From Asterochloris sp. CNOR1 (lineage: Eukaryota; Chlorophyta; Trebouxiophyceae; Trebouxiales; Trebouxiaceae), in contig OZ017757.1 in the NCBI GenBank assembly GCA_963969365.1, positions 434,001-498,000 on the forward strand: a stretch of DNA of 64,000 nucleotides, read 5' to 3'. The translations under genes were made by a program, and so were the position numbers. The notes under the pieces are model-generated. The model did no database searches, had not been told where the DNA came from, and was given only the letters and a program-made list of their open reading frames with translations. Positions 6,001-61,100 of this stretch are shown here, in pieces. The stretch's first letter is position 1, and every line of letters begins with the position of its first letter.

Positions 6001-9000
6001 TGTCTGACCATGAACCGCTACGTTTAACACCTCTCCGGCTTCTCTGGGAAGCAGGAGCTCCACTGTGTGCTGGGGCAAGTAAGCTAGCTATTCTGTAGTG
6101 CGTAGTCTTAGGGGGTGTTAAGGGAGTCTGTTGCAAGAACACAGTCTCAAGAAAACAGCTACACAGGAGCTGTGCTGCTCGCCTGGTGTGCACTCCTGCT
6201 CTGCCCAGGCCATGGCCACAATGCAGTCAGGAGACACTGCAGCTGGCTGATCAAGCAGGCCAGCACACAACTGAGGGGCCTCAGCGGCACTGCAGTAGCG
6301 GGGGATATCACAGAGCTTGAGCTTTGATCCCTTGAATGTTTGCTGTGCAGATGTCCCCACACGCCGATGACGGGCCTGAGTCAGCAGCTGCAGAGCCAGC
6401 AGACGAAGACGATGAGCAAGAGGTGGACAGCCGTGCTGCAGCGGGCACGTCCGTCAGGCAGCAGGAGCACATGGGCTTCCCAGATCTGGCAGAGCAGCTG
6501 CTGGTTGAGGTGAGCCCAGACCCTTGTTCCATGGGGAGTTGGCAGCCGTCTTAAAGCGGGCCTTCATTGGCTCTTGAACACTTGCACAGCAGCAGGCCCC
6601 TCCTGCAAATAGCGACTGCAGATGAGACTCTCAATCCCTAACAAGGCATCTGCCATCTAGAGGTGACTTGCAGGTTGCAGAGTTGCCCTGCAAAGCATCA
6701 AAGAAGATGGACGCCTTACAGCTGCAAGCCTGCCCCAGCTGCCTACTGATCCCATATGAGTAATTGCTGGTATCCTGCTGCGGGTGCTGGGCTGCCCCAG
6801 GATAGCACTTGTCTTGCATAGATGCATGTCTGCCAGATTGTTGTGGCACCAAAGTGACCAAAGCAACCTCTGGTGCAGGTTCTGGGCTGTCCCAAGACGC
6901 CGGCCTCCAAACCCTACATTTCCAGCTTGCTCAAGGTGTTGGCAGGCCTGCCTCTGGGAGGCTGCAGCCAGGAGGCAGTCAAACGCCTGCGGAGTCTGGC
7001 TGGTGCGTGGGCTGCACTCCTCTGCTTACTTGTCCAGTACCCCTGCCACAGCTGTGGTGAATGGGGAGCATGTGCCTGCAAAGTCTGCCGCAGCCAGGAG
7101 GGTCACAAGGGCCTGCAAGGGCTGGCAAGTAACAAGAATGCAGCTGCGGTGCATGTGCGTACTGGGTGCCTTTTGGGGAAGCAGCCTCTGACTTGCATAG
7201 GATGCGTCCTGATAGCCCCTGCGCCAGTGCATGCTGAGCAGCGGCCAGCCCGCCGAGCTCTGCAGGTGCACATAGGCCTCTTGGCTGCATAAGAGGCCTC
7301 TGTGCATGTCCTGACCTTGCCAACTCAGAGCAGACACCTGCCTGATGCAGACAGGATCCAGGTCCAGGCACAGCACTTTATGTGGCAGTTTAGAGTGCTA
7401 TTATTGCTGCTTACGACTTGCCTGTGTTTGAATCATCAAAGGCATAATTCCTGCTGGCTGTATCAAGGCCTGGCTTGCCAGCAGCTGCTGCCATTTCACG
7501 GCAAGGCTGATGCTGCAGACAGGGTGAGAGCTGGAACAAAGGACAGATTGGCACTGAAGGATGCAGACCAACTCATTGCCAGGCTGGCTGCAATGGACAA
7601 GACCCCTACAGAGGTGGGTTGTGTGAGGCTGATGCCTGGCCTTTGTCTGGCATTTGGGCGCCTTGACTGCAAGCACATGCAGGACCTGCAGCAAATTCTG
7701 GTGCTCAGGGACCTGGAATCCTGAAAGCTTAACTTCTTTTCCAGGACATCTCTTTCAGCACCAGCCGGCAGCTGAGGAGACCGGTGCTCAGCGGCTGGGG
7801 TGACAGGCGGTGCTATGGGCTGCAAAGGCACTGACACTTGTCTTGCTCCAGGCAGATCCGTCTTTACTTGAAGCGGTGACCTTGCATTTTAGTGATGCCC
7901 AGACATTGTTGGCCGACTACAATGTGTGCCCTCATGCAGGTCTATCCGTGACTTACCGGGCGCGATGCTGCCTTGCCTTGCAAAGTAGTCAGCGAGAGGC
8001 CCAGAGCTAGATGCTGCGCCTTTCAACCTTCTTGGCCATGTGAGGCAGCTGCATCTTGCTGTGAAACAAATCTTCACATGATTGGCCGCAGGCACCTCTC
8101 GGCAGAGGACTGGGCACCGCTGCATGTTGCCTAGCCAACTGAAGCAATTGCAAGCCAATTAAAGCAGCCCTCCATCTCTTCGCTGCAGGGTCTGTCGGCA
8201 GGGGACCTGGCATGCTGCATTCTGCTCTCCACCAGGTAGCGCTCGTCAAAGCCAAGTAGAGCAGCCCTCAACTGTCTGGCTGCAGGGCCTGTCAGCAGAG
8301 GACCTGGCAGCGCTGCTGGCCCAGGTCAGCTTGCACAGCGCGGAGGCCCAACTGCCCTTTGATGGCAGCCAGACGCCAGCCAGGAGGACGCCGGCGCGGC
8401 CGCGGCGCAGCAGGGCTGCTGCGGCTGTGGCTGCAGACTCTGTGAGCAGCGACGAGGATGAGCAGGTGGGGCCTTGGATCAAGGGGTGATCACTGTCGCA
8501 ATTGAGCACCGCCAGCGGCAGCAAAGGCTGCAGGATTGGAGAGCAGGGGTGGGTGGGGACTCACGGGCTCCTATGATCTGCATTCTGCATCACGAACGTG
8601 CAGCACTGGCAGCTGCGGCAGGGTAGCTGTGGAGGCTGGGAGCAGTGATGAGGAGGAGCAGGTGAGACGTGGTCTGGCATCATGCGGGGAGGAGCCCTGA
8701 ATATGTAGCAAAGCACTGGCGGCCGCAGCAGGGCTGCAGTATAGCTGCTGCAGGAGAGAAAGGCGCAATGGGAATGGAGGGCTGATGAAGGCTGCAAACA
8801 CTGCAAACAGGTGTCTCTATGACCAAACAGAGCACACAGCAGCAGGCCCTTCATAGCACTGTGTGTCTGAGCTTTGCAGCACTGTGCAGGTGCAGCAGCT
8901 GGCCCCTCCCAGCACTGTGCGTCGCCAGCTGCCAGCGCGCACCACCCGCAGCAGCAAAAGGGTTGTGGAGGAGCCTCTGCCTACATCATCAGACAGCGCA

Positions 9001-9273
9001 AGTGAGGACATGGGCAGCGATGCCAGCTGTGCGTCTGATGATGCAGCCTCAAATGACAAACATGCAGCTGAAGTTGGCCAACAGAGCACAGCTGCGGAGG
9101 CTGAGTCACAAGTGGTGCCGGATAGTGATGGGTCTGATCTGGAGAATGTGTGCAGCCGCCAAAGCAGCAGAGCATACCCTAGGAGTGGCAGCGCAGCCTC
9201 AAACCAGAAGGTTGGAGCAGGCAGCAGGCGCAGCTCAGCAAGATCAGCGCTTGCAGAGAACATCATCAAGTAA
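1..9273 (+). CDS. CAPG: Condensin complex subunit 3 (CAP-G/YCG1 family), 5' partial, multi-exon
   Basis: HEAT-repeat subunit of condensin, which compacts mitotic chromosomes with SMC2/SMC4. Exons I can place with agreeing phase: 298-359, 684-844, 1062-1209, 1561-1675, 1909-2034, 2221-2291, 2577-2767, 2996-3215, 3548-3709, 3971-about 4036, about 4866-5001, 5467-5694, 6351-6509, 6879-7002, 7519-7613, 7745-7799, 8286-8465 and 8890-9273 (TAA). Family signatures appear in order: VRRVAFLVLADSRK then LLKQGLGDRAASVREAA, QLLIIAAQCL, CLGLFCLLEG, SLAEGLAKIAL, and the hallmark LRQCLTVFFPAYA at about 5530. The C-terminus (8286 onward) is a low-complexity acidic Ser/Asp/Glu and Arg tail, usual for the family. 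By comparison with human CAP-G the first exon here matches roughly residue 200, so about 200 residues lie upstream of the window. The stretches 4040-4860 and 7800-8285 probably hide further exons that I could not phase. Confidence 0.93.
41..130. repeat. Short tandem repeat in CAP-G intron
   Basis: Three imperfect direct copies of a roughly 35-base unit built on gagctgagcagcagcaagcc lie just inside the window, upstream of the first recognisable CAP-G exon. Intronic, no coding potential seen. Confidence 0.6.
8092..8285 (+). repeat. Two decayed tandem copies of the CAP-G exon at 8286, 97-base period
   Basis: Acceptor-plus-exon starts at 8092, 8189 and 8286 are exactly 97 bases apart. Each follows a CAG and begins with a form of GGCCTGTCAGCAGAGGACCTGG. 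The flanking intron is also repeated (agcagccctc before the second and third copies). Only the third copy continues as an open exon encoding GLSAEDLAALLAQ; the first two are decayed. Confidence 0.85.
8600..8760 (+). repeat. Decayed copies of the acidic CAP-G exon end
   Basis: The real exon ends near 8465 with gacgaggatgagcag followed by the GT donor. A similar end, gatgaggaggagcag followed by GTGAG, occurs at about 8663. The upstream part of that exon (gccgcggcgcagcagggctg) recurs degenerately near 8603 and again near 8713. None of these can be joined in frame, so they are read as intronic shadows. Confidence 0.65.
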
Positions 9274-9357
9274 AAGCATATCATGAACAGTCAATCACAG
9301 CAAGTCATTGCAGACCAGGACAAGAAGGTTGCATGGCAAAGAATTCATTCAAGCCAA

Positions 9358-21696: not shown

Positions 21697-24600
21697 TCAG
21701 ATCTCCTCCAAATTCACTGACGCTCCACCTTGAAACAATGTATCTCTGCTGGGGCTGACATTGTCTGAGTCAGAGTTGGGCTCTTGCAACACTTGGGCTG
21801 AGACTGCTGGCAGGACGGCATCATCGCCTTCGCCTGTCAGGGTGACAACATCACCATCTGCTGGTGGTGCACCTACAAGCAAAGGCTTGGCCATCAGGCC
21901 TTGAGCAGCACCAGTGCAGCTGACTGTCAAAGCAGCCTCGCTGCAGAAGAGCGCTCTTTGCAGAGCCCTTCCCAGCAATCTTGCAAGCCTGGAGCTGCAC
22001 CACGTGACCGTGTGCAGATGCTCATCCTGAGCACAAACCCATGCTGCAGCTGGGATCAGGATGGCAACGAGGGCTCCCCACTGGCGCCTTCACACAACAC
22101 AGGGGAAGGATCTTTCAGCAGTTCAACAGCAACAAAAGAGGCTGTCTTGAGGCTCTCCCAAACAGACCAGGCAAGCTACCTCCATTCCTCCTCCTGAGCC
22201 GCCCTTTGCGCTGCTTCGCCCTGGGCTGCGCAGCCTCAGCAGCGCCACTGGCGCCAGCAGGTGCTGCCCCACTGCTGACAGCCCCAGCTGGTGCTGCATC
22301 TACAGCAAAGGACAGGGACCAGGATCAGGGATGAAGTACTGCCCATGCAATATGCCACAGGAATTACTGTAAAAGAGGAGGTACATAAGCCTCGAGACGC
22401 CAAGCGCTGCCATGCCTTGACTTGCGGCTGCTCTGATAGCAGCCTCGAGGGCTGCTACGTCTGCAGCAAATATACGCGCAGCAATCATGACATCAAGCGC
22501 TGCCGTCCCCCGGCCTAGCGGCCCTGCCGCTGGCAAGCCTAGCAGCTGCTGTGTCTGCAACAGATGTGCACACAAACCATCCAGGATGTGATTTGTGCCA
22601 AGCCCATGGCCGGCGACATCAATGCTGCAGGTGAGATAGGGGCTGTAAACAAGTTTTGCTGACCCTTAGCTTTGCAGCATTGCTGTTGGCATGCTCAGGC
22701 AGCATGACGTCTTGCAGATGGTCCAATGCACTGCTTAGTTTTTAGCAGGGCCCTGGCAGGCGTCACGCTGCACAGTTGTCACAACTTTCCCTCAACAGCT
22801 CTGCTCAAGCCCTATCTTGCCCAATGGCTGCCCTTACCAATGTGAAGCAGCAGGCATGGCATCCAATCAAATTCACGCAAAGTGGTGCCAGATCCACAAC
22901 ATATACAGCCAGGGTCGCCAACTCACCCTGTGCGCCTGCATTTCCATACTCATTTCGCAATCGTATACGATGCCACAGCGTGCGCAGAATGTCGCCCCAG
23001 AGCTGGTCGGTGTCCTGCTGCCGCTTCCGCCGTGCCCTCTCCTGCCGGTCCCTGCGGCACACCAATGTGAATTTTACCAAAGAAGCCCCCTCTTGCGAGC
23101 TGACTCTTGGCGAATAAGTGGCAGCACCTCACTTCCTGTCGCCGCCCGTAGCATGTTTGTCTCCTGACACTTCCTGCGGCACAAGGCGCATAAGAAAAAA
23201 GCCCTAAAACTTTGCAGTGGAAACGACGTGTTCAGGAGGCAAGCGCTGGTCAATCCTGCTGCTACTTCTGCCGTGCTCTCTTGCAGCGCTGTGTGCATTG
23301 TCCTGACATGGGTGTCTGTTGGAAGCAAACAGCGCAGCGCATCCCTATCAATTTGCTTCCTGCAACACTGTTCCTACAACACTCTTCCTACAACACTGTA
23401 AAGTAGGAGTAGTAATAACCAAAAAAATTCATTGCACACAACAACCCCATCAAGGTTTGATAAGGCACTGACGCACTCCCCTGCCTGCTCCACTGCCCTC
23501 ATCAGCAACTGCATGCCTCCAAGATGTGCATGCCGCCCCACAAGACGGCACTCACTCCTCTGCCTGCTCCGCACTGCGCTGCACCTCGTCAGCAAACTCC
23601 TCGCAGACCACAACCCCCTCAATGATGGGGGTGGCCCGCCCGCCGCGATACGAGAAGCCCCGCAGCGCTGGTGCGTAGTCTATGCCCATCTTCCTGCAGA
23701 CGTTGGTCACGTAGCGCACATTGACGTCCCTGGTGCCCTGCACCGCAGGCAGGGCAAGAACTTGCTGCTCAGCATTGCTATTGCAAAGCCTGCACATCGG
23801 CTCACTGTCTCAGCCCTTGACGCCCTCCACTGCAGCTCACATGAAGTGTCAGTGAAGTCGTCTGTCACATGGTGCACATTGTCCTGTCGGGTTCGTTGCA
23901 GCAGGGCAGGAGCTTGCTGTTGACTGTCAGTACTCCGTAGTCTGCATTGATGATTGACGGGCTGCAGATGTCTGAATGAAAGCTGCTGCGGGACAGCAGT
24001 ATTGTGACGTTGCAGCTGGTGGTATCATTATGCATGTTCACGTCCCTGGTGCTGTGCACCAAGAGCATTGACCCAGCTGCTCACCTCAAAGTGACAAGGC
24101 CAAACCTGTGCAGATGCTGGCATTGGCCCCCATCCTGCAGCATGCAAGGTGCTTGCCACATGAACCAGGCCATGGGAAGTGCCCTGAGTGATAAGGGCGT
24201 CAATGGTAGGCACATGACTCAGCACTCCTCGCCGGGGGCCATCAGCCAGTAAAGCTGCGCTGGTATGATTGCATGCTGAACATGTGCAGCCGACCTGGGT
24301 GCGCTTTAGGCAGGTAGGGCGCTGTCAGAAGGCACATAATCAGATTATTCGTGGTGTTGGACAGCTGAGAAGAGCATACAGCTCAAGTGCAGCGCAGGCC
24401 AGCACACCTTGGGCAGGGAGGGCACCAGTGGTGGGCACATGACGTTGCCCCGCTCGTTCTTGGGCACCACGCCGTCCTTTGCTTCAGGGGCCACCCACAC
24501 CTCTGTCTGCCACTCCCCATACAGGCTGGTGTTGACAGCCTTGGCCGGCTGGTCTGCAGGCTCCTCATTGACATCAACAGCATCGGGGTCTGCCTGCACG

Positions 24601-27600
24601 CAAAAGAGTAGGCACAGGTTGGGGAGCTCACCGGACAATGTCTGTTGTGCTGGGCAGGCTGCTCATAGCAGTAGTGTCTTCTGTAGGAGCAACAGCCGGC
24701 ACAAGTGGGTATGCCTAGTAACCAGGACCTGCTGAGGGGCTGTGACGCGGGGCAGACGGCCTTGCATTGGATGGCTGGCTGGTCTGCTGGCTGTTCCTTT
24801 GAATGTCCAGCACCTGGGACTGCCTCCATGCAAATCATCATCATGCTGGTTCTCACATATGGTGTATGAGCGCTCTTTGGCTGCTGTGTTGTGTGACAAA
24901 CCGGTGTTGGGCAGAGCCTCCTGCGAACTGACAAGGCAATGCTTCTGAGAGACTGCAGGCTGGCGGTCAGAGCATACCTGTTGCTGACCTCTATTCGACA
25001 AGCAGTCACTACAGGGCCCTGATGTCAGCAGCAGCATGGGATCCCAGATGATCACCTCCTGATCCTGGGCTGGAGCCTCTGCCCCGCGCTTCTTGACCTG
25101 CTTGAAGGGTGTCTTCACCTGGTCTTCGCAAATGACACGTCCCTCCTGAAGCCACCTGCAGCAGTAAGGTGCAGCTGCGTTGCTGGAGTCCGCAGTCTGG
25201 AAGCGCACTACTGCTGGAGCCACTTACCGGTACTCTGCATGTGCAGGGCCTGGTGGGCCAAACCTCAGCTTTGTACGAACAAAGTAAAAAGCATCAATAG
25301 TCCCTTAGTGTGAGTGAACCATTACAAGCCTCTGCATGAGGACGACTTTGGCGAGCAGCATCCCACCTTACCTGGTGTTTAGAGGGAAGAAGGTGTTCCT
25401 CACATGTACTTGGTGTTCAGGTCGACAAACTGCTCGATCATCGATACTTTCCCCACTGTGCAGGCCCTTACATGTGCTCAGGTGCAGGGCCTCTTGCGGC
25501 CAGCCTCAGCTGCATTTTTGGATGAAACACAAAGCTTCCCCTCATGTGCAGACAGGCCAGGCGCTCCCCCTTCCTTCAGCCGCCCCACCACATGACAAAG
25601 TAGGGCAGAACTACTCACCTCTCCTTGGTGTGTAGGTGGACAAGATCGTCCCTCAGAAAGTACTTCTCCCCACGGTGCAGGCCCTGGTTGGCGGCACCAG
25701 GCCTGACTGCATCGTACCGCCCCAGATGCCTCTCCAGGATGTAGAGCGGGTGATTTCTGCAGCACAGGCCAGAGCATCTTTGCTGCTGGGCTTCACTATC
25801 TCAAACGCCTTGCAGCCTTCACTACTGCCACTATAAGGTCCTCTAAGCAGGCTGCCTGACAGATACATTGCAGTCCAGCAGTGGCCTCCAGGCTAGTCAG
25901 CGCCGAAATTGCCGCCTCCTGCCGCGCAGCAGTACAAAGCTGGAACTTATGTTGTCGTCATCTTGGCAGGCTCGACCAAGTCATTTCATTCTGGCATCCA
26001 CTCACTGTCACAACGCAGCGTTGAAAGCAGCCCCGCAATCCATGATGCCTGTGCTGTTCAGAAGTGTCAGCTGTCGCTGAGAGTTGCTTCCTTATAATCT
26101 CGCAGCAGGCCAAGACTGGATCTCACCCTGTCTCAAGCAAGGCGAGCTCGCTGAAGCCAGTGCTGACCTGAAGGCATCCAGGCTGCTGGGTGGACTCAAG
26201 ATGGCTCTGTAATACCCAAGCTGCCAGGCCTCAGCACCGCCTGACCCCTGCTGGTGTGCCTGACATCTGTAGCCCCAGGCAGAAGTCTCCAGGCACGCCA
26301 GGCTGACCTAAAGTCATCTACACTGCTGGGCTTGACTTGGTCATGCTCCTTCTGGATCTGCCGCAACTCCTCATCCTCCCTGGCAGCCATGGCTATGCTT
26401 GCCTTGCTGTGCAGTGCCTCCGCCTGGGGCTTGCCTGATGCAGCTGTGCCGCCGTCCTGCTGCTGCATGTGGGCAACACGAGCCTCTCCCTGCACAGCAG
26501 CAGGCCACAGCGACTAGGAGTGCCATGCTGTCACATTCCTGTAAACTTGCAGCTGCAGGCAGCAGCTACACTGCTGTCCACCAGGAGTCTGGCTGCAGGT
26601 GATCTGCCCTGCCACGCTGCTCTACAAGGCCAATGCTTGTGATTCTGGTGCAGCGCTGCCGTCTCAGGCATGCCTGCTGAAACCTGCAGTTGCTTGTCAC
26701 AATCTGCAGGAGTCTGGCCTCAGCCTTACACAGGGGCCCAGTAGGTGCTTGAACCCCGTGCAGTTGCAGGTCAAGTCCCGCAGGGGCCTGCCTCACCTCG
26801 GCCTTGTGCAGGGGAGCCAGGAGGTGCTTAAACCACTTGCTGTCTCGCAGCTTCTGGGTGTAGGGCATGTGGCCAATATAGCGCCGCGTCACGTCCTTGG
26901 CACCACCATTGGCAAAGGCCACCACATATGCCAGGCCACACTGCCTGTACACAGAGCATGGAGGCCTCGGCATGGCATGCCAGCATGTATAGAGAGGTCA
27001 TCCTATACATGATGGACATCTCTGGTTGCCTACAGGACCTGAAACCATACGCGACAGCAGCGCGACAATGTGCCATGACTGCAGCACTGCATGCAAGCAA
27101 TAAGTCTGACAAGATGGGCCAGCAGGCTCTGTAGTCAGCACCCAGGAGGTGCAAAGAAGCCCAAGGGCAGCAGTTGATCTGGCTTACCCCAGGCCACTCT
27201 GTCCCACCATTTCCAGTGCAGAGCAGCCGCTCTCAGCCTGCTAGCATCAAGCACCAGCACAGCAGCGCCCCTTGATGCCGCTTACCCCTCATGTAGCAGC
27301 TTTCCTGCCTTGTCTGTCTCACCTGACGCCTCCGCCCTCGACCTGCTCTGGCTTGTCCAGCCAGTTCAGCAGCGGGTCCACATGCACCCAGCGTCCCTCA
27401 TCCCCACTCCCGCAGAACACCTCTGCCCAGGACATGCACAGCTGACCGCGCTGTGGATCTCGTGCCCAGCTGAGCCCTGCGCCCTTTTTCTTCTGCCGGG
27501 CTACAGAAAGATGTGCAGGACTTGTCGCTGCTTTGACAAGGCAATGGTGGAGGCCTCAGCAACCTTCTACGTCTCCAATTTCACAGCACATTGGGCCCAA

Positions 27601-30600: not shown

Positions 30601-33030
30601 CCCAGTAGCAGAGCATGCCATGTGCAAGCCCAAGGCCCAACAGGTACACTGTCACCACCTGGGATGCCGTGAACTCAACACCTGCTTCCATGAGGACCCT
30701 GCTGGAGCACAGCCCTGCATGTCTGACCTTCTGGACATGGTCATGTGGGCCCACCTGTGGTATACCCCTGGCTACAGTCGTGCAGGCACCTAGCTGTTGC
30801 AGAGCTGTGGCTTACACTGACAGGCTCTGAGCCCCACTCTGGATCCAGCACAATGACGAATGTGCTCTTGAACCAGTTGACCACGGGCCGCAGCGCAGGG
30901 ATGGAGATGCCCTGGGACCGCCTGAAGCGGGGCCGACACCTGGGATCCAGCAGCGACAGCATCAGACCCTGCAGGCAAGCAAGGCAGGGGGCTCAGAAAG
31001 CGGGCTTTCATACAAGGTGTCACAGGATCATCAAGGACTGGCATAGCAAGCAGCAAAGGGTGTGAGCCTCTGCAGTGCACATCACAGGGCCATTCAAAAA
31101 GGGCCACATGAGCAGGACTGTTTACGTCAAGCATCTAAAGGCTGCTCCAGCAGCATAAGCATGAGACCCTGCCAGCATGCAGGTGTCACATGCACAGTCT
31201 GCGAATCCCACAGCAGGGATTAAGATGCCCTGCACAAAAACGACAGGAGATCTGGATCTGGGATACAGCAGCGACAGAATCAGCCCGTGCTGGTGTATCA
31301 GGCTGGGGACTCACATGTGCTGGCAATGCTGCCCAGCCTGTCAAACAACCACAGCCAGCTTGGCTGAATCAGAATGCAGCTGAGGCTGGCAAGGCCTGCA
31401 TTGCATCTGCTCCCATGGGGCTGCGGCTGAGATGCAATTTGGTGGCCGTGGCCGCCATGCTAATCTCTGCTAAGGTGAGCTGAGCGGTTAGCGCTCTGTA
31501 TCTGAGCAAGGCCACAGCTTGAAGAAAAGCTGGCTTCTACAATGGCCAAGCTGCAGCTGCGCCTTGGACATGGCAGGAATTTGTCGCAGCATCTCATGGT
31601 CCTTGCTACAAGATCTTGCCACAACCCACGTGCCGGCAACGCAATTGCATGCACTCCTCATTAAGCAGCACCATGCATTGAAAACAGCAAAGAAGTTGCC
31701 AGATGGGACCTTTCCTCTGCAGCACTTGGTCAGCTGCTGCAACACCATGCCACAGGATGCCAGTCAAATGCCTGTTGCATACAGCAGGTGGCAGGCAGCA
31801 AAGTGCATTGCAAGGGCAACACAGCATTACATAAGAGCTGACGAGCAGCAGCAATTGGCTGCAGCAGCTTCATGCGACAGCCTCATGCGACAGCCTCTAC
31901 ACTGGGAGCAGGCGGTCGATTCGCTTGTAGTGGTTGTAGCTATCTTGTACCATCCGTCAACACTGTACCAGATACGTGGGGCTTTTGGAAACAGCAACTG
32001 CAGAGAGATATGTACCTGTAGTTCTAGGTCATCCGCTGCAGCATCATGCCACAGTCCCCTTGCGAGCAGTGCCATTGCGTGCACATGGTGCACCTGCACT
32101 GCCAGAGCTTTGTCCCTTCTGGTGATGCGCGGGCGCCGCTGCTTGCTGGGCCCATCCAGAATCTCAATGTCTGCAGAATTTGAACCACTGGGAGGTCACA
32201 GTCCAGATGGTGCACAGACAGGAGCCAGAAGGCTGGCATTAGCCTGATGGTGAAAGACGAAGCACTGGTGGGGGCCCTGGTGGCGGGCAGTTGTCACTCA
32301 AGTCCCCACCAAGAGGGCTGCCCACAGCCACGGCTTCAAGCAAGCTGCACCCCAAGGCAGTGGTGGGCCCCCCAGAGGCAAGCAGCCCTCACCAGAGTCC
32401 CTGTCCTCAGCCTCCACCTCAAAGGCTCCCTCAAACTCCTGGGGCCCCGCAAACTCATCCTGCCACCCTGTGTCGCTGTCGCTGCCATGCGCTGCCTCCC
32501 ACTGCAGGCAGGCACTTGTGTTTGAAGACTTGTGGCTCGGCCTGTCTGAACTGACTCATCCTGCAGCCCTGCCTAGCATGGTATCAGCAATCAGGCCTGA
32601 CAGAGACGAATTCATAGCCAGGGGTGCTGACCCCATTGCTCATCTCAGACTCTAAGGCTTCAGGTGCTGCCTGTGCTGGTGATGCACCATTCAGTCACCC
32701 AAAGCGCAGGCTGCACCATAATCCAACACAGACTCCGAGTTTGCTGCTGCCGCCTTTGCTGGTTGTTCACGCCCTCTCAACTGCCAAGGCTGCCTGAACA
32801 GCAGCAGCGCTGAGCCCATTCGTTGATCTCAGACTCTGGTAGCCCTGCCCACCCCCTGTGTTGGCAGGGAGGCATCAAGCTCCAGGCTGCCAGAAGCGCA
32901 GCCGTGTGCCGACCAGAGTGCTCACCTCAGACTCTGAAGCTCCTGCCGGCCCCTGCATGGGCAGGGGTGTGTCCTGCTCCCAGGCCGCCAGGGCAGGGGC
33001 TCCACAGGCCGCGCCAGCATCCTCTTGGAG
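21697..33030 (-). CDS. XPC: XPC/RAD4 nucleotide-excision-repair DNA damage sensor, multi-exon
   Basis: Recognises helix-distorting lesions and recruits TFIIH, with RAD23/centrin. Exons on the minus strand, N to C: acidic linkers 33030-32915 and 32530-32260 (GWQDEFAGPQEFEGAFEVE), about 32170-32010 (VHHVHAMALLARGLWHDA), about 30965-30850 (GISIPALRPVVNWFKSTF), about 30390-30227 (GSHEQLALLFVALCRGLGLL), Lys-rich linkers 30050-29190 (KKAGRGKKRKAEDEAEA), 28395-28183 (GDVEFDNQIQMAMQ), about 27430-27330 (GRWVHVDPLLNWLDKPEQVE), about 26960-26820 (YVVAFANGGAKDVTRRY), about 26490-26330 (REDEELRQIQ), about 25765-25620 (NHPLYILERHLGRYD), about 25160-25050 (WLQEGRVICEDQVK), about 24590-24410 (LYGEWQTEVWVAPEA, VPKNERGNV), about 23740-23555 (KMGIDYAPALRGFSYRGGRA, EGVVVCEEFADEV), about 23080-22930 (LWGDILRTLWHRIRLRNEYG) and 21870-21697 (acidic end, NLEEI stop). 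These cover the transglutaminase-like fold and all three beta-hairpin domains. The start codon is not placed and may lie up to about 33.4 kb. Confidence 0.95.
23430..23500 (-). repeat. Decayed copy of the XPC beta-hairpin-3 exon end
   Basis: The plus-strand text acaacaaccccatcaaggtt and ccctgcctgctccactgccc mirrors the real exon at 23560-23625 (ccacaaccccctcaatgatg, cctctgcctgctccgcactg). On the minus strand it reads DGVVVCNEF against the real EGVVVCEEF. It lies in the next intron. Confidence 0.7.
23865..24080 (-). repeat. Two decayed copies of the XPC beta-hairpin-3 exon start, 158-base period
   Basis: The real exon has cacattgacgtccctggtg at 23717. Matching text occurs at 23875 (cacattgtcctgtcgggttc, then gcagggcaggagcttgctg) and at 24033 (catgttcacgtccctggtg, then ctgtgcacc). 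Both spacings are 158 bases. Confidence 0.8.
25404..25600 (-). repeat. Decayed copies of the XPC HPLY exon
   Basis: The real exon contains tacttctccccacggtgcag ending at 25680. Degenerate forms are tactttccccactgtgcagg at 25445 and cttcccctcatgtgcagaca at 25535. They lie on the 3' side of the exon in the gene's sense. Confidence 0.7.
26135..26260 (-). repeat. Decayed copies of the XPC exon before HPLY
   Basis: The real exon end reads agtcatctacactgctgggc at about 26313. Related text, aggcatccaggctgctgggt, occurs at about 26170, and a further fragment (ttgctgctgggcttcactat) at about 25780. Confidence 0.55.
26600..26800 (-). repeat. 78-base degenerate array beside the XPC DVTRRY exon
   Basis: The real exon end has gccttgtgcaggggagccag at 26801. 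A copy with gccttacacaggggcccagt begins at 26723, 78 bases away, and both carry the next motif (gtgcttgaacc / gtgcttaaacc). The stretch gaaacctgcagttgc near 26674 gives a third copy at about the same spacing. Confidence 0.75.
28960..29010 (-). repeat. Decayed copy of the XPC Lys-rich linker exon start
   Basis: gaggcagcgccagcatcctg at about 28969 repeats aaggcagagccagcatcctg at about 29174, which is the end of the linker exon in plus-strand text. Confidence 0.55.
29700..29910 (-). repeat. Repeated AAQDLA segment of XPC linker
   Basis: Three related units at about 29722, 29820 and 29912, each with gccggcagc / gccagcagc / gcctgcagc followed by a ggccaRgtc motif. On the minus strand the two higher units read AAQDLA in the same open frame, so they could be an in-frame coding duplication. 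The lowest, near 29722, is decayed. Confidence 0.6.
31145..31290 (-). repeat. Two decayed copies of the XPC PALRP exon start
   Basis: The real exon has ccagcagcgacagcatcaga at 30947. Degenerate copies are ccagcagcataagcatgaga at 31147 and acagcagcgacagaatcagc at 31265. The latter also keeps the downstream part (agggcatcttaatccctgct on the minus strand, matching GISIPA). Confidence 0.8.
31590..31680 (-). repeat. Decayed copy of the XPC ALLARGL exon
   Basis: The minus strand reads MHAIALPARGLWQD against the real HAMALLARGLWHDA at about 32080-32040. It is followed by unrelated text, and sits in the intron 3' of the real exon. Confidence 0.75.
32640..32840 (-). repeat. Tandem array of the XPC N-terminal acidic exon boundary
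   Basis: The string cagactc with a preceding CTC/CAC donor context recurs at 32646, 32729, 32830 and 32938 (spacings 83, 101, 108). The last is the donor of the exon that stays open; the others are degenerate, though one could serve as an alternative short exon. Confidence 0.65.
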
Positions 33031-34923: not shown

Positions 34924-37548
34924 TCAGTCTGCCTTCCTCAGCCTGCTGCCTGCTGCAGTGTCATCCCCAGCGATCTCTGCCATGAACTGCTGCAGCTTCT
35001 CCTGGTATGTGAAGATCACGCTGAGGATGATGACCATGCTGGCCAGGATGCCTGCATGCACAACGCTAGAATCCTTGAAACTTATGCATAAGCGCATTAC
35101 AGCTGCCTTGACACTGCCTGCTCAAGCAGCCACATAGCATGCTGCCTGCTGCTGTGCATCCTCTCTGCAGATATTGCAGTGTTTTGAGGCCACAACGCAT
35201 CAACACATTGAGGCAGCCAGTGCTGGCAGATTCCATCATGCTCTCATCATGGTGCAATGCATGCTGGCTGGACAGCTTGCAACGCCACCTCGCATAATGC
35301 TGTGCACTACACAGGCACAGGCACCGCGTGGGCAACTGCGCATAGTTCTCGAAAATCCTGCACATGCTGCTGATGTAATCCAGGGCACTGCTGCCAGCCC
35401 TCAGCAATCTGAAGCTCCACATGCAAGCCTCAAGCCCCACTCCATGTCTCAAGTGGAATTGTGCTTCTCACCTGCGCCAGACACCACGTACAGGCCCTTC
35501 AAGGCCTCCACAGGACTCACATTCACCCATTGGTAGCGCACCAATAGATGCTTGGGCCAGTGCGTGGAGTTGCGGAACTCCTCCACCAGCAGCGCGTGCT
35601 GCTGGAGATAGGCTGGCGGCACGAGCACCACCTGCAGTCCGAAAGTCGCCAGTAATATCAGGTTGCAGCTTGTTGCCGAATGGCAGAGCATGTCACTATG
35701 GGTGAGCTGGGGCCTTGTTGCCACCAGTACCCACCGACTCGGCCAAGCACATTTCATGTTGGCCTTGGCTGGATCTGTGCTCTTGTTGGCAACTGCTGTG
35801 TCTGGATCAACAGCACGTTGATCACCAGCACACACCCCTGTGGTTCTGCAACACCTCAGGCTGACGCAGACCTTTGCTGCCACCAGCTACCAGCACAACA
35901 CATTGTCCCGACACTCTGGCTGGGCTGTTGTGATGCACTGGCTGACCTTGGGCTTAGCTGACACCAGCTCCCAATGAATTGTGTCACCAGGCTGACCAGC
36001 AGCACGATTCTAGAATTGCACCCTTCAGCGGCTTGTACTCAAGGGCTCAGCAAGCCTCTGACTGCCCAGCTTGGCTTGGCAGCACTGTCTCTGCCTACCT
36101 TGGCCTTGGCCGCCACCAGCTCAGCAGCTGAGTAGGTGAGCTCAACCTCCAGCATTGGCACTGCTGGAGCATGTTTCCCAATCAGGGTCAGCCAGGGAGT
36201 CACCAAGCGCTCTCCTGCAGCAGGATAGTCAGGCTGTGCAGATGCCAGCTGGGGCCTGCAGCTGAAGGGGCTTTATTGCTATCAGGAGCAGCCACGGCGT
36301 GACCAGGCGCTTCCCTGCAGCAATAACTGTCCCTGGTCTTGTGAAAGTGAAAGCAGTCACTGGGTTCTGCACTAAGGGGCTGACGGCAAGACCAGGAGGA
36401 GCCAGTGCGCAGCTAACAGCAACCCTGCAGCCAACCATGCGTCCCCAATCAGGCTGTACAGGCACTTTCTGGGATTTGCAGCAAGGGGCAACTCTCCTAT
36501 CAGGGTGAGCCAGAGCATGACTTAGGAAGGAGGCAGGTTCTCTGCCTCCAAACACTAGCTGGCGAGCTGGTCATTGCACAGGCTGTTGAGCAGCCACCAA
36601 GTTGGCTGATGGGCCGCTCTTATGCAACCCACCAATTAGCAGCTGCTGAGCCATCATGGCCACAGTGCACGCACATGTACAGCACAGCAGAGGATAGCTG
36701 CACAGGCAGTAGTCTGGTGTCATGCTGCACCAGGTGCCAGATGTTGGTGCACTCCACAGTCCATGTTCACCTCACCATCGAAAGAGAACGAGACTTTGTA
36801 CTTGTCCACAGTGCTGAGGCCTCCAAAGAGTCCCAGCGGAACAACAGCCTGCACATAGAATCAGACATCTGAACAGACCCAAAGTTGACATCCTTGATGC
36901 AACCTCAGCCTGCGCACACAGACACACACAGGCTTGCACGACAGCTCTGAAGAATGAAGGGCTGATGGTCTGAGTAGACACTGCATGGTTGCCTCTGCAG
37001 CAACATCAAGGCAGCAAGGCCAGCAGGGCTCCCCTGAGCTTCAAACCATGATCAGAGCACATGGTGTCACCCGCCTTGTGATGAAGGCCGCATGATGCAG
37101 TCTGCCATGGTGCGGAAGATATGCATCTTCAGGTGGGGTGCAGGCTCACCACTGTCTGCTCCCCAAAATGGGGGCAGTTACGTCCAAGCAAGTCCTGCCA
37201 ATGGGTGCGCTTCTGCAATAGAGGCACACATGTACCCTCGGCAAAAGATCTGTAATTCTCATGCAAAAGCTGCTGGACTCTGCAGCCAGTACAGCCTCTG
37301 CTAGAGAACTGCACATGGGAGAACTTGCACACTGTAGGGCTAGCTTCGCCACCTGATTCAGCTATCATGTTCCCACAGCGCAAGAACCAGAGCAGGCAGA
37401 CCAAAGCATGCCTGAGATCTAGCCTCACCCCATGGACCTGCGCCCGCCGTGATGCTGGCACAAACTCGCCAACTTGAAAGCTGGTGGCGCCACTGGGGAC
37501 TTGTTGGCACATCAGGGCTGTCAGCAGGAGCCATGCTGCGCAGCGCAT
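34924..37548 (-). CDS. Small type I membrane protein resembling plant Expp1
   Basis: Six minus-strand exons with agreeing phase: 37548-37429, 37212-37150, 36848-36776, 36214-36099, 35631-35472 and 35051-34924 (TGA), 219 residues. ATG at 37548 begins a signal peptide (MRCAAWLLLTALMCQQVPSG). The luminal part includes HWQDLLGRNCPHFGE, VDKYKVSFSFDG, ERLVTPWLTLIGK and STHWPKHLLVRYQW. A single membrane helix (GLYVVSGAGILASMVIILSV) sits near the C-terminus, followed by a short charged cytosolic tail. From memory, the order and motifs, above all HWPKHxLVRYxW before a helix, match plant proteins annotated 'Expp1'. Their role is not known to me; a secretory-pathway location is inferred. Divergent from the dehydrogenase gene, with 280 bases between the start codons. 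Confidence 0.75.
36270..36520 (-). repeat. Array of decayed copies of Expp1-like exon 4, about 100-110-base period
   Basis: The real exon start region carries tcagggtcagcc at 36182 and cctgcagca at 36214. Copies: 36282 (tcaggagcagcc, then cctgcagca at 36314), 36392 (ccaggaggagcc, then cctgcagcc at 36424) and 36500 (tcagggtgagcc). The 36282 copy still reads KRLVTPWLLLI against the real ERLVTPWLTLI, so it is the most recent. Confidence 0.85.
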
Positions 37549-37828: not shown

Positions 37829-40800
37829 ATGAGCTCGACCAGCAAACTCTACCCTCCTGCAGACATCAGCATGCAGACTGTGCTCGTGACAGGTGCTGAA
37901 CATCAGATTCCCTGTACTCCTGGCTGGAACCCCCAGTATCACCTGATCATTCAAACACATGTGCAGGAGCCAGCTCAGGCATTGGCGAGGCGTGTGCATG
38001 GCGCTTTGCAGAAGCAGGTATATGCCTGTCGACACTTGAGAGCCAGGATTGGAGGAAACAGTTTTCTCATCAAGATGCAGCTCATGGCTCACCTCTGCAG
38101 GCTGCAAACTGGTGCTGACAGCCCGGAGAACCGACAGGCTGGAGAAGCTGGCCAAGGAGTTGCATGACAAGTACAAGGTCAGAACATGCCTGGGAAGACA
38201 TTGAGTGCTGGACTGAGCTGAGCAACCCTGCACTTCCCATTGAGACTGCTTGTGAGGTAGAAAATCGTTCCAAGGCACAGCTGCTCGCTGCATTTCTGTC
38301 AAGGACGATGGTTGTCCTCTTTTGGCAAAAGCTCTGTTCTGCATGGGTCAGCATTGGCAGGGGCACACGCTGCCACACGACATTGGCACAGCATGCTGTC
38401 AACTTCTCGAGATGTGTGCATGGCCACTTGCAGCAGGTCCGACCTGCTGCACTGCGCAAGGCCCATTGTGTCTGGAAAACACCCGCCGCTCACAATTGAC
38501 TGCAGCACCGTTGTGGAGCTGGGATAGGGCGTCATAGACCTTGCAATGGGGGGCACTTGGGGGGCCGCAGTTGCTAGTAACCCTCGCTCAGCTGCCCTAC
38601 ACAGTGTTGAGTGCGCAGCTAACCCCCCTGCAAGGTTAGGCCTGGCTGTCAAGCTCTTCTTTGGCCGTGCTGCTGAGTAAGGTGACTGACTGTGCAGGTG
38701 CCTGTCCACTCGGTGTCCCTGGACCTGATGGACTTTGAGAAGCTGCAGGAGCTGCCCAAGCGCCTGCCAGCTGAGTTTAGAGAGGTGGGCCTTGCTGCCA
38801 GCTTTCTGGCTGTACCCGTCAGCCAGAGTGCACCTTGGCTGCTAATAGTGCCTGCAGGAGGTGCCTGCCAGTAGAGCCCTGAGATGGGCTTAGTTGGCAG
38901 CCAGCCGCTGCCTGCTTGCTGCGTCCAGGGAAGTCAAATGTTGCTACCTGCTTGCTGCTGCCTGCCCAAGCAACTCACAGTCCTTTTCAGAGAGCTGGGC
39001 CTACAATCCATTGTGGAGCTTGTGCAGTGTGTCTGGTGCTGCTGGTGTGACAGTCCCACATTGCCAGGCTGCAGACTGCCAGTGCAGCACCTGCTGGGTT
39101 GCAAGGGTGCCCTGAGCACCAGGGGCTCTCGCAGCCATGGTGTGCTTTGCTGCTATGCAGACTTGCAGCCTGTCTGGCCAGCTCAGGTGGATAACCTTTG
39201 GAGCGGTGCTGCCCTGGATGTTGGCACCGCTTCTATATGTGGAGCTGAATGTTGGGACACGCGTTGCTGCCTGCTATAGGTTGACCTCCTGCAGAGCGAA
39301 GCAGGCTCCACTCTGTGCATAGCTCCTGTGGGTGGGGTTGCGGCCCTGCAACTTGCTATGCGTGCTTGCTGCAGATTGTTCTGTTGCACACTTCAGGCCT
39401 GGCTGCCTGGAACAGCCCCAGCAGGTGGTGCAAGGGCAGCTCCCCACCCGTGCCTTATCTGCTTGCTGCAGGTGGGCATGCTGCTGAACAAAGCAGGCTT
39501 GGCCCTGCACATGGTCCGACACAAGGTCTGTGTAGGCTTCGACCAAGCTTTTTCTATTGCTTCCTGCAGGTGGATATCCTGCTGAACAACGCAGGCCTTG
39601 CTCTAGGGACAGCCCCTGTCCAGGACAACAAGGAGGAGCACATCATCAGCATGGTAAGCTGGACAGGTTCCTGCTACAGGGCAGTGCATCACCTGGTTAC
39701 TGACCTTCTGATGCGCATGTGCCCACCGGCAGGCAGGCCTAGGTTGTTACAACAGAAAGGGTGCAGGCCTGGCTGTCAGCTGCCAGCTGTCACATACTTG
39801 CTGGGGTCTCAGTCACTCCACAGGAGCCGTATCTGGCTGCCTACACCAAATGATCAGCCTGGCTGGCAGATAGGCTGAGGGGGACTGCAACCTGCAGCAG
39901 CGTGCTGGCACTGACCGCACAGCGCTATACACAAAAGTCTGAGCAGCAGCAGCATCTTGGCATCCAGACGCTGTGGACACATGCAAGCTGGCCGTCTTGA
40001 AGACCAGAGGCACTCAAGCTTCAGCAGGGCATGGTCATGCGCAGCCTTTCACATGCGCTCAATGGCAAGCGTCAGCTTGCAATGTCTTGCCACACTTCTG
40101 CCACAACGTTGCAGCCTTGGCGCTGCAGGTGAACACAAACATCACAGCTGTTGCACTACTCACCAAGATTTTTGCAGCAGGTGACCAGCAACTGCTCAGT
40201 CCTCCCTGTACCTGGCAATCTGCTGCTTAATGACTCCTGTGCCCCACACTGAAGTCTGCTGACACTGCAGGCATGGTCAAGCGGGAACGTGGGCACATCG
40301 TGAATGTGAGTCTATACTGACTTGGAGGTGTGCACTTGCCTGGTTGGGCTGACAGCCTGCATACAGGATTCATGTTGCCAATTGCGTCTGTCTCTATTTG
40401 ACCTGCTGACTGAAAGTGCTGTACCCGTTGCCTACAGATCTCCTCCATTGCTGCCCATTGGAGCTACCCAGGTGAGATGTGATGTAATTTGCATGCAGGT
40501 CAGCAGTGTCCTATATATTCTTCTGCAATAAGGCTCTGTCTGCAGGTGGCAGCATTTACAGTGCCACCAAGCACTTCATTCATGGGTTTACAGAGTGTGC
40601 AAGGTGCGCTGTGAGAGGGCCTCTCTCACAAACAAATCTGACTTGCTCAAGCTCCACTTGCTCACGTAGCAGCACTGTCCCCCTCTCAGGCAGCTGCAGC
40701 TGTCTGAGACAGCTCCGTGCATGCCTGTGCCAATTGCTGATGTATCTGCAGACATGACCTCGTAGGCACTCCCATTCGGGTGACAGCCATCAGCCCTGGC

Positions 40801-56957: not shown

Positions 56958-57491
56958 TTCTCTTTCAACATTTAGCTGTCCGGCTGGCAACATCGTCACC
57001 TTCTATTGTGCTGCCTGGACTCAGGCGCAGGCTATGTGTCTTCTCAAATTCCCAATCAGCTCAGAAGGGACCTTATGGCCATGCATCACTCAATGATTTG
57101 GTAAGCTTAAAGGCATATGCATGATCATGGAGAAGGGTGTCAAATCCACGACGACCACGACCAGGGAGGATGCATACTGCAGCGTACAGCTGTGCACAGA
57201 TGTGCATGATCCAGTGGCAATTGACGAGATGGAGGATCAATGACCTTGAGGTTTGTGCAAAGCATGCTGACTCTGAGGCAAGTTTCCAAAGCCAGCAATG
57301 GTGGAAAACACACACTCTACAGTGTAAGGCTTCTGATCTGGAGCTACCTGTGCAAGCACTATTATGGTTTCTTCTGTGCAATCTAGAGGGTGACACCATA
57401 TCTACAGTAGATCTCCAGCCCAGAGGTGCTGCTTTTTAGCCTGGCTGCATGCCTTGTCAGTCACTTCTCTCTGACAGTTGCAAGATGTTTA
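56958..57491. other. 3' flank of the surface-protein gene
   Basis: No gene seen. Contains the TGTAA at 57323 and ends at the dispersed repeat at 57492. Confidence 0.4.
57323..57327 (+). terminator. TGTAA poly(A) signal candidate of the surface-protein gene
   Basis: TGTAA 366 bases after the TAA stop at 56955-56957; the first such motif I found downstream on this strand. Confidence 0.4.
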
Positions 57492-57960
57492 ATACAGCAG
57501 CCACTAGGCAAAGAACCTCGAATGCAACAAGTCCTTGCTGTGGTGCAGAGCATTGCCAGTGTGCTCAAGAAGGACTGAATAATTGAAAGGCATGTGGAGT
57601 GGGCCGCAAAAACTGGTGCTCAACACTTGTTGCAACGTGGGGGGCCGCTGGGATCTGGCGTGACTAGAAGCAAGACCTGCTGCATGCATCATGCAGCAAG
57701 GCTGTCCACCTTGGCTGTGAAAGTATCAACTATTTCTGCACTGTTGAATTGGAGTCTGAGTTGGGCAGGCTTGAATGAGCCCATCTTCCAGTACGTCTCA
57801 TTACTTTCATCCTTTGCGCTCTCTTTCTGGGACAGCATGGTGAACATTGCGCACCCGCCTGGACGCTTGCCATACTGCATAGCACAGGCCAGGGCGTCAG
57901 ACGTGACCTTGCAAATGCCAGATGTATGGGCAGCAGCAATCACACAGGGCAATCAACTTC
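57492..57960 (+). repeat. Dispersed repeat family, copy 2
   Basis: Second copy of the 42.1-kb repeat. It keeps the VVQSIASVLKKD-stop end near 57535-57577 and a downstream segment that reads FALSFWDSMVN on the plus strand (CALSFWESRVD in the inverted arm of copy 1). Differences between copies in the KKD end are mostly silent (aag/aaa, ctc/ctg), as if that stretch was once coding. No terminal repeat, target duplication or transposase frame is visible. It lies between the surface-protein and nucleoporin genes. Confidence 0.75.
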
Positions 57961-58130: not shown

Positions 58131-61100
58131 CTACACTGCTGAGACGGTCCCATCGAGATTCAAGCACCATGCGCGGCTCACACTCTTGACAGCGCCTTTC
58201 TTGGGAAGCTGAGCATAGAAGGAGACTGCTCCATTGGGCATCTTGAGCTCAATCATGTGGCGCCCGCCAGGCTGCTTGCGTATGAACAGCTTCCCCTGGC
58301 GCTGGTTCCCCCACCCCTGCAGAGAGTAATTCACTCGTGTGATTGCCTGTGGCAGGCTGTGCAGGTCTGCTCCTTAACACTGTCGCATGATGGGGCATTG
58401 TCTTGGGAAGTGCTCCTATGCGTGAACCTGCTTGCAACAACCCTAACCCTAACCCCCCCTGTGGGGCATCGCTACTTCATCCCTGCACAGAGTGAGAAAC
58501 TTGAAACAGTGGATCTTGTCTGGCGGGGTGTGGCTGCTGAAGCCTGGCATGGACTGGCGCACCTCTGCGAACAGGGACAAGTAGCCAGGAGATGTATCAG
58601 GCAGGCCCTGCACAGAGTGGCAATCAGTCAGGTGTCTTCGGCAGGCTACAACTGCTGAAGCGTGGTGCTGGCCACCCGCTACAGACACCATTAAAAAAAC
58701 TGGGCAGTGTGTTTGCTTGCAGGTGCTGCGCACCCATGCAATAGCCTGCTGGCAGGTGAACAGCCTTTTCTGTGGCTGATTGTCCCAGCCTTGCTCACAG
58801 AGCAGAGTCACAGGCTTACAGTCAGCTGGCTCCCTGTGGAGGCCTACATGTGCTGAAGCCTAGCGTGACTCCAAACCCTTCAGGGCATCAGTGGCTCTCA
58901 ATCAGTGGGGTTTCAGCCGCCCCTGCACGCTGTTTAAGCATGGTGCAGGCGTCACGCAAGACATGCCCAGATCTCCCTGATGCTGGCTGCTCTACTGCAC
59001 GAGACAGAACGTGGCACGCACAGTCATGTGTGGCACAATGCGGGCCTGTACTGTGCAGCTGAGCAGCAAGCCAGCATCAGACAGTTTACACTCAAAGGCT
59101 TGCCTGCTGGGTCCTTGAGAGCACAGCAGAAGGGGGGCTACATGGCAGGGCCCAATGCACAGGCAGATACTAAAGCTCCAGGGACTTGCCTCTTTGGGAT
59201 CGCTCAGGTTCTTGAGAAGGAACGCCCTCACTTCATCAGAGAAGGCCACATTCTCATCCTCCTTGAACTCTACCTGCAGCAGTGTCCCTTTCTCTTTGCA
59301 CTGTGGTTTTGCAATGGGCAAGTCTCGGGCCCCAGCGCGCAGAACCCGTGGTGATGAAAGCGACCAGTTTCTGTGGATAGCAGGCCGCTGCAGGTGGGAC
59401 TGCTGGAAGGCCTCTGCAGGGAGAAGTCAACTGCTCAGCAGGCCAGGCCAAGATGGGGCTGTCCCCTGGCGCAGCCAGCCGCACCCTCCTCAGCATTCTA
59501 CTGCAGGCAGTCAGGCTGCCTGGCTTCACACTGATATTGGCTTGACACATGAGAGGTAGGGGACACCTTGCACGTGCGGTGCTGAGTTAGTTATGCCCAC
59601 ACAAGCGCTATGCCCACACATACACCTCAGCGCAACCTGCAGGCAGGCAGCCTGCTGGCATTTCATGGCAGGGTCAGCCAACGCTCGCGCACATTTCGCA
59701 ACCCACAGGCAGCCCAAGATGCCGGCACTGTTGGCAGAGCCAGCCAGTCTGCAGGCAGGCGGACCCTAGCTGAGAGGAACACAGGGCCATGACAGCCTTC
59801 GGTGCAGTGCGACACCTCAATCGTGTTGCCTCCCACCTGCGGGCCAACCAGCTGGTTCTTCAAAGTTCTGCCTGTAATTTGCGTTTGTGCCGGTCTTTCA
59901 GCTCTGGGGTTCAGCAGTACTGGCCTGTGCCTTGCATCAGTTGTGATGTTGTGTCCTTCATTCAGCTCTTAAGATTATGCAGCACTGGCCCACCGCACCA
60001 AATACCAGCAGTGCATGAACTGCCTAGCAGTGACTCTCACTCACTCTGCAGTTGTGGCCTCCTTGCAGTACCCATCAGCAATGCCGGGGACATGTCCCTT
60101 ACCCCCAGCTGTCAGGCCTCCACCAGCAACTCCTCTTCGAAGCCTTTGCACTGGCACCCGTCTGTCCCAGCATGGCGGTGTGCTGACTTCAGATGTGACT
60201 CCCACTTGCATCCTCTGAGCCAAGTCTCTGTGCAGGCACAACCCGGTCACAGCAGCCAGCACCAAGGTGTGGCGCTGTCTCCCCTGACGACCGACCTGGC
60301 CTCTCACAGCTCGCGTCCGCAAACTCCACATCATGCCAGACGATCTGGTCACAGCAGCCAGCATCAGGTTTGGGTTTGTCCCGCCCTGAACGCCTGCCGG
60401 TCCCTCACTCATCCTACCAGCAATTGTCAAACTCACGTTTGGCTCATTGGCGCCAGTGTCTTCAGCCTCCCCCTCTGGTTCGGCCCCTCCCCCGTTGTTC
60501 GGTCCAGCTGCGGCACCCCCTGAGCCAAACTCCAGAGGCGCTCCAGGTCCAAACGCTGGTGCGCCCCCAGAGCCAAACGGAGGCACTGCTCCAGGGCCAA
60601 AGGCTGGGGTGGTGGCCGGCGGGAAAGCAAATGATGGTGCACTGCCTGCAGGCAAGATGGGTAGTCCCATGTCAGCTGGGATGGCACTTGTGGGGCAACA
60701 TGGCTCTGGTCATGGCGCTGGTCAGCTTGGGCCACTCTGCATGCTGCCTGCAGCAGGGACATCAGCCCCTGGCGTGAGTGCCCCAAGCACAGGTCCCTGC
60801 AGCTCAGCGATGAGCTACATGGCACAATGCTGGTCTGCAAGGGGTCATCACTGTCGGCACTGCCCCTGCCCACGTCGGCACCAGCAGCACTGCAATGAGT
60901 GCTGCAGAGGCCCGTACTGTGACCTGCACGGCTCAAGGAGCCGCCAGAGCCCTTAACACAACAAAGAGTGAAGCACAGCTGCAACAGTGCAATTCCCAAT
61001 GTGCTCACTTGCACCGCTCCCAAAGCCGCCGAGGCCCGCTGCGGCCGCAGAGCCAGCGCCCGTGCCAGCCGTTGTTGCCCCCAAGCTGAAGAGGCTTGGT

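Follow-up and report, generated by a model that had tools for sequence, protein, structure and literature searches.

Local tandem copies of exon edges in the introns of the green alga Asterochloris sp. CNOR1

Introduction

Can introns lengthen by copying the edges of their own exons? Intron lengthening without transposons is poorly documented. A first-pass annotation of a 64,000-nucleotide stretch of Asterochloris sp. CNOR1 DNA (contig OZ017757.1, positions 434,001 to 498,000; hereafter the window) proposed such growth by recurrent tandem duplication of exon-intron junctions, having found decayed copies of neighbouring exons in the introns of at least six genes. Similar patterns are known from other processes. 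Tandem exon duplication, as in mutually exclusive exons, places exon copies beside an exon, and intronic minisatellites are tandem arrays within introns. Intron gain by tandem genomic duplication is reviewed in PMC3443670, which refers to Hellsten 2011 as well as to Gao and Lynch 2009. Introner elements, according to PMC9860276, bring bulk changes in intron content, chiefly in lineages that evolve fast, green algae among them. Our literature search, with most subscription journals outside its coverage, found no account of pervasive junction-spanning duplication in introns.

Results and discussion

Excess of local direct repeats

We sampled 294 kb, made up of the window and 23 ten-kb stretches, one of which (L020) was picked for its match to the CAP-G gene and not at random. 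Local direct repeats were sought by an ungapped scan. Low-complexity coding arrays were masked (two in the window; 43.8-46.5 and 60.9-62.4 kb in the 294-kb counts), and three low-complexity segments were dropped from the 294-kb set, reducing it from 191 to 188. These 188 direct repeats compare with 1 at control offsets and 1 inverted repeat. In the window alone, 51 ungapped segments were found at offsets 30-599, with none in either of two control ranges. Direct self-matches at E<1e-3 occurred in 107 of 225 two-kb windows (cross-window 3, shuffled 0). Inverted self-matches were seen in 48 of the 225, compared with 30 after shuffling; this excess is weak, and palindromes inflate it.

Local copies derived from exons are present in 23 of the 24 stretches and, counting partial models, in 33 of the 42 multi-exon genes that were predicted. 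Exons and introns were assigned by self-trained gene models, built without RNA support. By these models 96 of the 188 repeats lie at an exon or splice junction; the segments include 96 exon-containing, 64 intronic and 17 exon-exon, the last kept out of exon-containing counts. Repeat density was 0.29 per kb in intergenic DNA (a small sample of 27 kb and 8 segments) vs 0.35 in introns. We confirm that exon-edge copies exist in introns, also beyond the window. A minimum step of ~80 bases with a mode of ~110, suggested by the BLAST set, was rejected because BLAST self-comparison misses short steps (at 85% identity it detects 0/150 at step 60, 2/150 at 80 and 138/150 at 100) and the ungapped scan shows shorter ones.

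Exon-edge copies in the window

The places named in the first-pass annotation were tested as 16 alignments, each against 400 dinucleotide shuffles (floor p_shuf 0.0025) and against as many as 1000 places drawn at random from the window. The features are as follows, functional copies being called live and decayed ones shadows:

8257..8316, + strand: CAP-G live intron-exon junction, template of the array (gene model, shuffle test)
8074-8123 (78%) and 8160-8218 (86%), + strand: two CAP-G shadows, compared with 8257-8316; step 97; both p_shuf 0.0025
9966-10062, - strand: patatin-region pair with 9832-9932 (77%); step 134; p_shuf 0.0025
23853-23946 (68%) and 24011-24060 (72%), - strand: XPC shadows, compared with 23695-23794; step 158; both p_shuf 0.0025
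24542..24834, - strand: XPC junction of exon 24408-24593 and shadow 24772-24834; step 230
25399..25685, - strand: XPC donor side of exon 25619-25756 and shadow 25399-25468; step 215
30895..31313, - strand: XPC junction of exon 30755-30968 and shadows 31146-31181 and 31213-31313; steps 200 and 318
36181..36516, - strand: Expp1-like junction of exon 36099-36214 and array upstream in the gene; step ~100
39264-39329, 39363-39419 and 39460-39506, + strand: short-chain dehydrogenase (SDR) shadows, compared with the live edge around 39557-39619; all p_shuf 0.0025
39557..39619, + strand: SDR live acceptor and start of the copied exon (gene model, shuffle test)
58269..58845, - strand: nucleoporin junction of predicted exon 58131-58316, with shadow 58743-58845 compared with 58269-58368; step 474; p_shuf 0.0025
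60340-60389, - strand: nucleoporin pair with 60238-60287; step 102; p_shuf 0.0025

In CAP-G the copied unit is the acceptor and the start of exon 8286-8485 (80% over 61 bases in the ungapped scan). The step-158 array of XPC derives from the acceptor junction of exon 23556-23737, which belongs to a Rad4/BHD gene (Pfam). The SDR shadows copy the start of exon 39570-39653. The SDR Pfam match is continuous at 145 bits when the shadows are omitted and partial at 129.8 bits when they are included, so that protein homology puts them outside the coding sequence. The Expp1-like gene, whose protein had no match in a Pfam search, has a strong first shadow (36281-36322 vs 36181-36222, 81%, p_shuf 0.0025) and an overall alignment of 62% (36181-36408 vs 36281-36516).

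The observation of copies in six genes is confirmed: 11 of the 16 alignments reached the floor. Three were weak by dinucleotide shuffles, namely a fourth SDR shadow at 39184-39230 (p 0.005), Expp1-like 36496-36513 (p 0.0125) and patatin 10071-10103 (p 0.0175). By the same shuffles, similarity at Expp1-like 36393-36431, also named, was not significant (p 0.15), nor was it at 60433-60442, a place added to the test (p 0.73). Two of the pairs are not clean cases of an exon copy in an intron, as each lies within one predicted exon. In the patatin pair (9832-9932/9966-10062) either copy may be live or a shadow, and the nucleoporin pair at 60.24/60.34 kb (60238-60389) may be a coding repeat and not a shadow, its step of 102 being a multiple of three.

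Geometry and reading frame

From 104 arrays we excluded 8 touching intergenic DNA and 6 that were exon-exon, leaving 90. Duplication was recurrent, with more than one pair at the same place in 22 of the 90. Among pairs spanning a single junction, the dead copy lay upstream in 39/40 acceptor pairs and downstream in 27/27 donor pairs. It was thus on the side predicted by head-to-tail duplication in 66 of 67, and the description of the copies as local, same-strand, exon-derived and tandem is upheld. Both junctions of an exon were spanned in 2 of 82 pairs, and no junction in 13. Steps modulo 3 fell 31/26/39 in the exon-containing class, where they ignore reading frame, and 15/2/0 in the exon-exon class. 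Outside the latter, 37 of 171 segments had an aligned length above 0.7 of the step, and decay or indels could explain the rest. Aligned length over step had a median of 0.42 in gapped pairs.

No shadow acceptor near an intron start, and no shadow donor near an intron end (<=10 bases), was found among 67 shadows with an assigned intron. The geometry is that of growth of existing introns, not of intron creation. Introns that contain an exon-derived shadow have a median length of 465 (n=59) and the others one of 261 (n=505), a longer intron also being likelier to contain a shadow. Mismatch between live and shadow copies was 0.246, 0.208 and 0.286 at codon positions 1, 2 and 3 and 0.283 in intron sequence; the lower values at positions 1 and 2 fit one copy under constraint. 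Copies had also been said to decay with distance from the live exon, which our comparisons do not bear out: the near copy was the more similar in only 12 of 24.

A probable explanation: tolerated random duplication

The pattern is probably explained by random tandem duplication that introns tolerate, combined with longer visibility near exons. Stretches of tens to a few hundred bases would duplicate in tandem at more or less random places in the genome. Duplications inside an exon would usually spoil the protein and be lost; those confined to an intron, or spanning just one splice junction, would be tolerated. The copy adjoining the rest of the exon would stay spliced and the other would become intron, so that the intron gains one unit while the outer copy and its splice site decay. 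As the live exon is conserved, an old copy of its junction would stay recognisable for more time than a copy of intron sequence alone, and exon edges would appear favoured for that reason. We infer that placement is random, that the process is neutral and that the event occurs at the DNA level, through slippage, end joining or template switching. The exon-edge copies look like ordinary local DNA duplication tolerated by introns, a simple lengthening route. The arrays resemble intronic minisatellites in being tandem, and some are young and short-stepped; they differ in that one unit is a conserved live exon edge and the rest decays. Such an exon preserves a readable record of duplication, from which the rate, the age and the splice-site death of intron-lengthening duplications become measurable.

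A steady process of this kind should leave many young exon-containing copies. Those observed are for the most part old: at least 90% identity was seen in 2 of 96 exon-containing vs 20 of 64 intronic segments (ungapped scan), which counts against tolerated random duplication and leaves simple steady growth unsupported. It is possible, though doubtful, that a past episode of junction-spanning tandem duplication, now largely stopped for exon-containing units, gave introns much of their length; most multi-exon genes would then hold relics of it that can be dated, along with a stock of half-dead splice sites. An absence of young copies (0/138 BLAST pairs outside the exon-exon class at >=90%) was dropped, since 22 segments at >=90% emerged from the ungapped scan and a further copy at 92.6%, in an NADK-like gene (below), had been hidden in the exon-exon class.

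Splice junctions could instead be preferred duplication targets, if some factor linked to splicing or to transcription, such as R-loops or exon-edge breaks, made tandem duplications start there. We simulated tandem duplication without junction targeting, varying age and indel rate. The observed share of exon-containing arrays, 75 of 90, exceeds the simulated 0.545-0.743 at moderate ages (T 0.1-0.3), but older ages or more indels yield 0.82-0.98 without targeting, and the full range of 0.545-0.983 is too wide to rule out targeting. Simulations that match the short alignments (median 0.42) give a median identity of 65-67%, below the 70-75% observed. In the scan that also detects short steps, exon-containing segments number 96 and intronic ones 64, and intergenic density is similar to intronic. 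A junction-specific process is thus improbable, random duplication plus visibility giving a similar share. In the proposal that introns grow by tandem duplication of junctions, the exon-derived, tandem copies and the longer introns are supported; targeting and steady growth are not supported.

Spare splice sites and an unlikely role as alternative exons

Pools of spare splice sites had also been proposed. They exist, in a minority of shadows: of the 40 shadow acceptors 12 have a score of >=7.5, and of the 30 shadow donors 4 have one of >=6.0, by cut-offs chosen afterwards. The acceptor G is lost in 11/42 shadows vs 12/123 at the three preceding positions (p 0.018), and donor GT bases in 16/58 vs 6/56 at the next two positions (p 0.032). 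We do not claim that shadow splice sites are selectively killed: the gene finder treats any intact site as live, which biases this comparison.

That shadows are alternative exons kept for use, made by tandem exon duplication, is very unlikely. Exon-sequence copies do adjoin an exon in both cases, the gene finder called several shadows exons, and near-consensus scores are retained at 16/70 shadow sites (by the same post hoc cut-offs). An NADK-like gene in one stretch (L006) also has an in-frame copy of 95 bases, 92.6% identical at step 96, which sat in the exon-exon class; its Pfam score is 68.1 bits with both copies and 58.7 without the second, the live copy not being told apart. Against this, the copies here take in part of an exon and one junction, with both exon ends spanned in so few pairs; they show no frame preference, they decay, and the SDR domain match is better without shadows.

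Unlikely explanations: intron creation, dispersed repeats and artefact

Tandem duplication of exon sequence could have created introns, duplicated AGGT-like sites becoming new donor and acceptor. The donor and acceptor consensus have CAG|G in common, PMC3443670 documents the route in other species, and there too local tandem duplication with splice-site text alters intron structure. In that route, however, a duplicated exon segment becomes a new intron, whereas here an existing intron lengthens and its junction stays; the shadow acceptor at an intron start or shadow donor at an intron end that creation predicts was seen in 0/67, and this origin is scarcely credible.

Introner-like or other dispersed repeats that adjoin exons by chance are a highly improbable source. 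Introner elements are dispersed families that create introns, whereas almost every copy here is local and comes from its host gene. Strict locality fails: CAP-G 8107-8311 has a non-tandem antisense copy (68%) inside a predicted intron on another contig, C7, which is also a point against tolerated tandem duplication. In searches of limited sensitivity, this was the one dispersed CAP-G copy, the SDR and XPC arrays matched only themselves, and we did not find the introner hallmark, similar sequence shared by the introns of many genes that are otherwise unrelated. Two long queries, 33.9 kb in total, had just two matches, the C7 copy and a repeat at 34247-34454 of the window; their sensitivity is doubtful, as they missed their own location. 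When loci within the 294 kb were compared with one another, 12 distant pairs emerged, all <75% and not intron families.

The chance that low-complexity text or faulty gene models produced the pattern is close to negligible, and for the excess itself this reading is already refuted: introns are rich in CTGCAG and the models lack RNA support, but the other-offset, cross-window, shuffled and inverted controls are near zero, the excess is independent of gene models, and CTGCAG, the acceptor consensus here, is equally common in the cross-window control and therefore not the cause. For gene annotators there is a warning, as shadow copies can be called exons. In CAP-G, the shadow stretch 8189-8209 is called a small exon by the gene model.

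Local copies of exon edges in introns

The decayed copies of exon edges that the first-pass annotation described in introns are a real feature, widespread in the 294 kb sampled of this genome, and the best reading is that unremarkable tandem duplication at short range shows up here because the exons are conserved. The genome (56.38 Mb in 21 contigs, 18 of them 1.99-4.47 Mb each; GC ~58%) has compact, intron-rich genes, which with the GC content and the splice-site sequences suggest a green alga. Our sample, ~0.5% of the genome, comprised the window (C12:434001-498000) and 23 stretches of ten kb; the positions of 22 were fixed beforehand, and one (L020) was included for its CAP-G match. The self-trained gene finder (450 training introns, mean 330; exon median 112) gave, at convergence, the donor consensus CAG/GTGAGC and the acceptor CTGCAG/G. 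Four of the five predicted window proteins searched carried Pfam domains (Cnd3; Rad4 and its beta-hairpin domains; short-chain dehydrogenase; GH43), with no match for the Expp1-like protein.

The copies first proposed in six window genes proved mostly real: of 16 alignments tested, 11 reached the test floor, three were weak and two were not significant, one of these two being a place added in this analysis. Beyond the window, direct self-hits occurred in 107 of 225 two-kb windows versus none after shuffling and three in the cross-window control; inverted self-hits, in 48 windows versus 30 shuffled, showed a weak excess. An ungapped scan of the 294 kb yielded 188 segments at steps (distances between repeat units) of 20-619 and one at 3000-3599; a closely similar ungapped count found one inverted segment, against the 188 direct. 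The locality of the copies has an exception: the CAP-G array (window 8107-8311) has an antisense copy (68%) on contig C7 (L020 4854-5078), which holds two array units and sits in a predicted intron of another gene.

By predicted gene models, the 188 segments were 96 exon-containing (46 IJ, 30 EI, 13 JJ, 7 EJ), 64 intron-intron, 17 exon-exon, eight intergenic and three mixed. The 189 BLAST pairs were 103 exon-containing, 51 exon-exon (mostly from the window's coding arrays), 22 intron-intron and 13 touching intergenic sequence. By BLAST, local duplicates took up 25 bases or more of 97 of the 564 predicted introns, and at least 13,288 of 183,267 intron bases in all. Intron-intron segments occurred at 0.35 per kb and intergenic ones at 0.29, the latter resting on eight segments in 27 kb.

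Anatomy and age of the copies

In 82 pairs the gene models make one copy live and the other a shadow. Forty are acceptor-only, with the shadow upstream in 39, and 27 are donor-only, with the shadow downstream in all 27; two contain both junctions and 13 neither. Live-shadow mismatch was 0.246, 0.208 and 0.286 at codon positions 1, 2 and 3, and 0.283 in intron sequence. Steps showed no multiple-of-three bias, which exon-exon repeats do show. With shadow exons, the dehydrogenase matched its Pfam profile only in part (59-188, 129.8 bits); without them the match was continuous (20-187, 145 bits).

The clearest case, outside the window, is a gene whose product has a Pfam NAD_kinase match.

L006 8554-9316: NAD-kinase-like gene, acceptor-edge and donor-edge copies flanking one exon

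Here the acceptor and first exon bases are copied upstream of predicted exon 8841-9197. Within that exon, 95 bases (9010-9104) recur 96 bases further along with 92.6% identity, and another, decayed copy (75%) lies in the next intron (9226-9316). The 96-base step is in frame, and therefore the young copy may be translated.

Nearly all exon-containing copies are old: two of 96 segments reached 90% identity, compared with 20 of 64 intronic ones (Fisher p 1.5e-7; p 0.003 for steps of at least 80 only). Short-step intronic minisatellites, apparently younger than the exon-containing copies, account for part of this contrast.

Minisatellite segments, 90-100% identical
L005 1738-1822
L014 5978-6178
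L015 2540-2623
L028 1656-1700

The remainder could reflect a past pulse of duplication or selective removal of new copies at junctions; alternatively, some young copies that keep the frame may have been called as exons. Decay with distance from the live exon was not borne out, the nearer copy being more similar in 12 of 24 comparisons, 11 of them from one stretch (L011).

Mechanism

Targeting of junctions by the duplication process is not needed, although it may play a part. In a simulation without junction preference, scored by the share of exon-containing arrays among detections, this share was 0.545-0.743 at T 0.1-0.3 (0.694 in a T 0.3 rerun) and 0.817-0.983 with greater ages or more indels; 75 of 90 observed arrays contained exon. 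Under the latter settings simulated identities fall below those observed, and the fit is therefore only rough. The positions of the shadow sites speak against creation of the introns by tandem duplication, with 0 of 67 falling within 10 bases of the intron's other end. The proposal that introns grow by recurrent junction duplication is supported in part: the copies are real and widespread and fit intron growth at junctions, but junction specificity is not supported. Tandem duplication was already known to reshape introns; intron growth at junctions would be a further form of it.

Other repeats in the window

At 18016-21024 a reading frame that is cysteine-rich and zinc-ribbon-like is directly duplicated over 1.1 kb (76%), with a diverged inverted relative at 34163-34777 and further matches on contigs C17, C12 and C1. 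A dispersed pair (42132-42972 and 57491-57889; 68% identical, one part direct, one inverted) had no third copy in a genome search. A long proline/threonine-rich coding tandem array (43898-46258; units of 54, 63 and 192 bases) belongs to a large extracellular-matrix-like gene model. A 68-base imperfect palindrome (80%) lies at 41417-41484, in sequence labelled intron.
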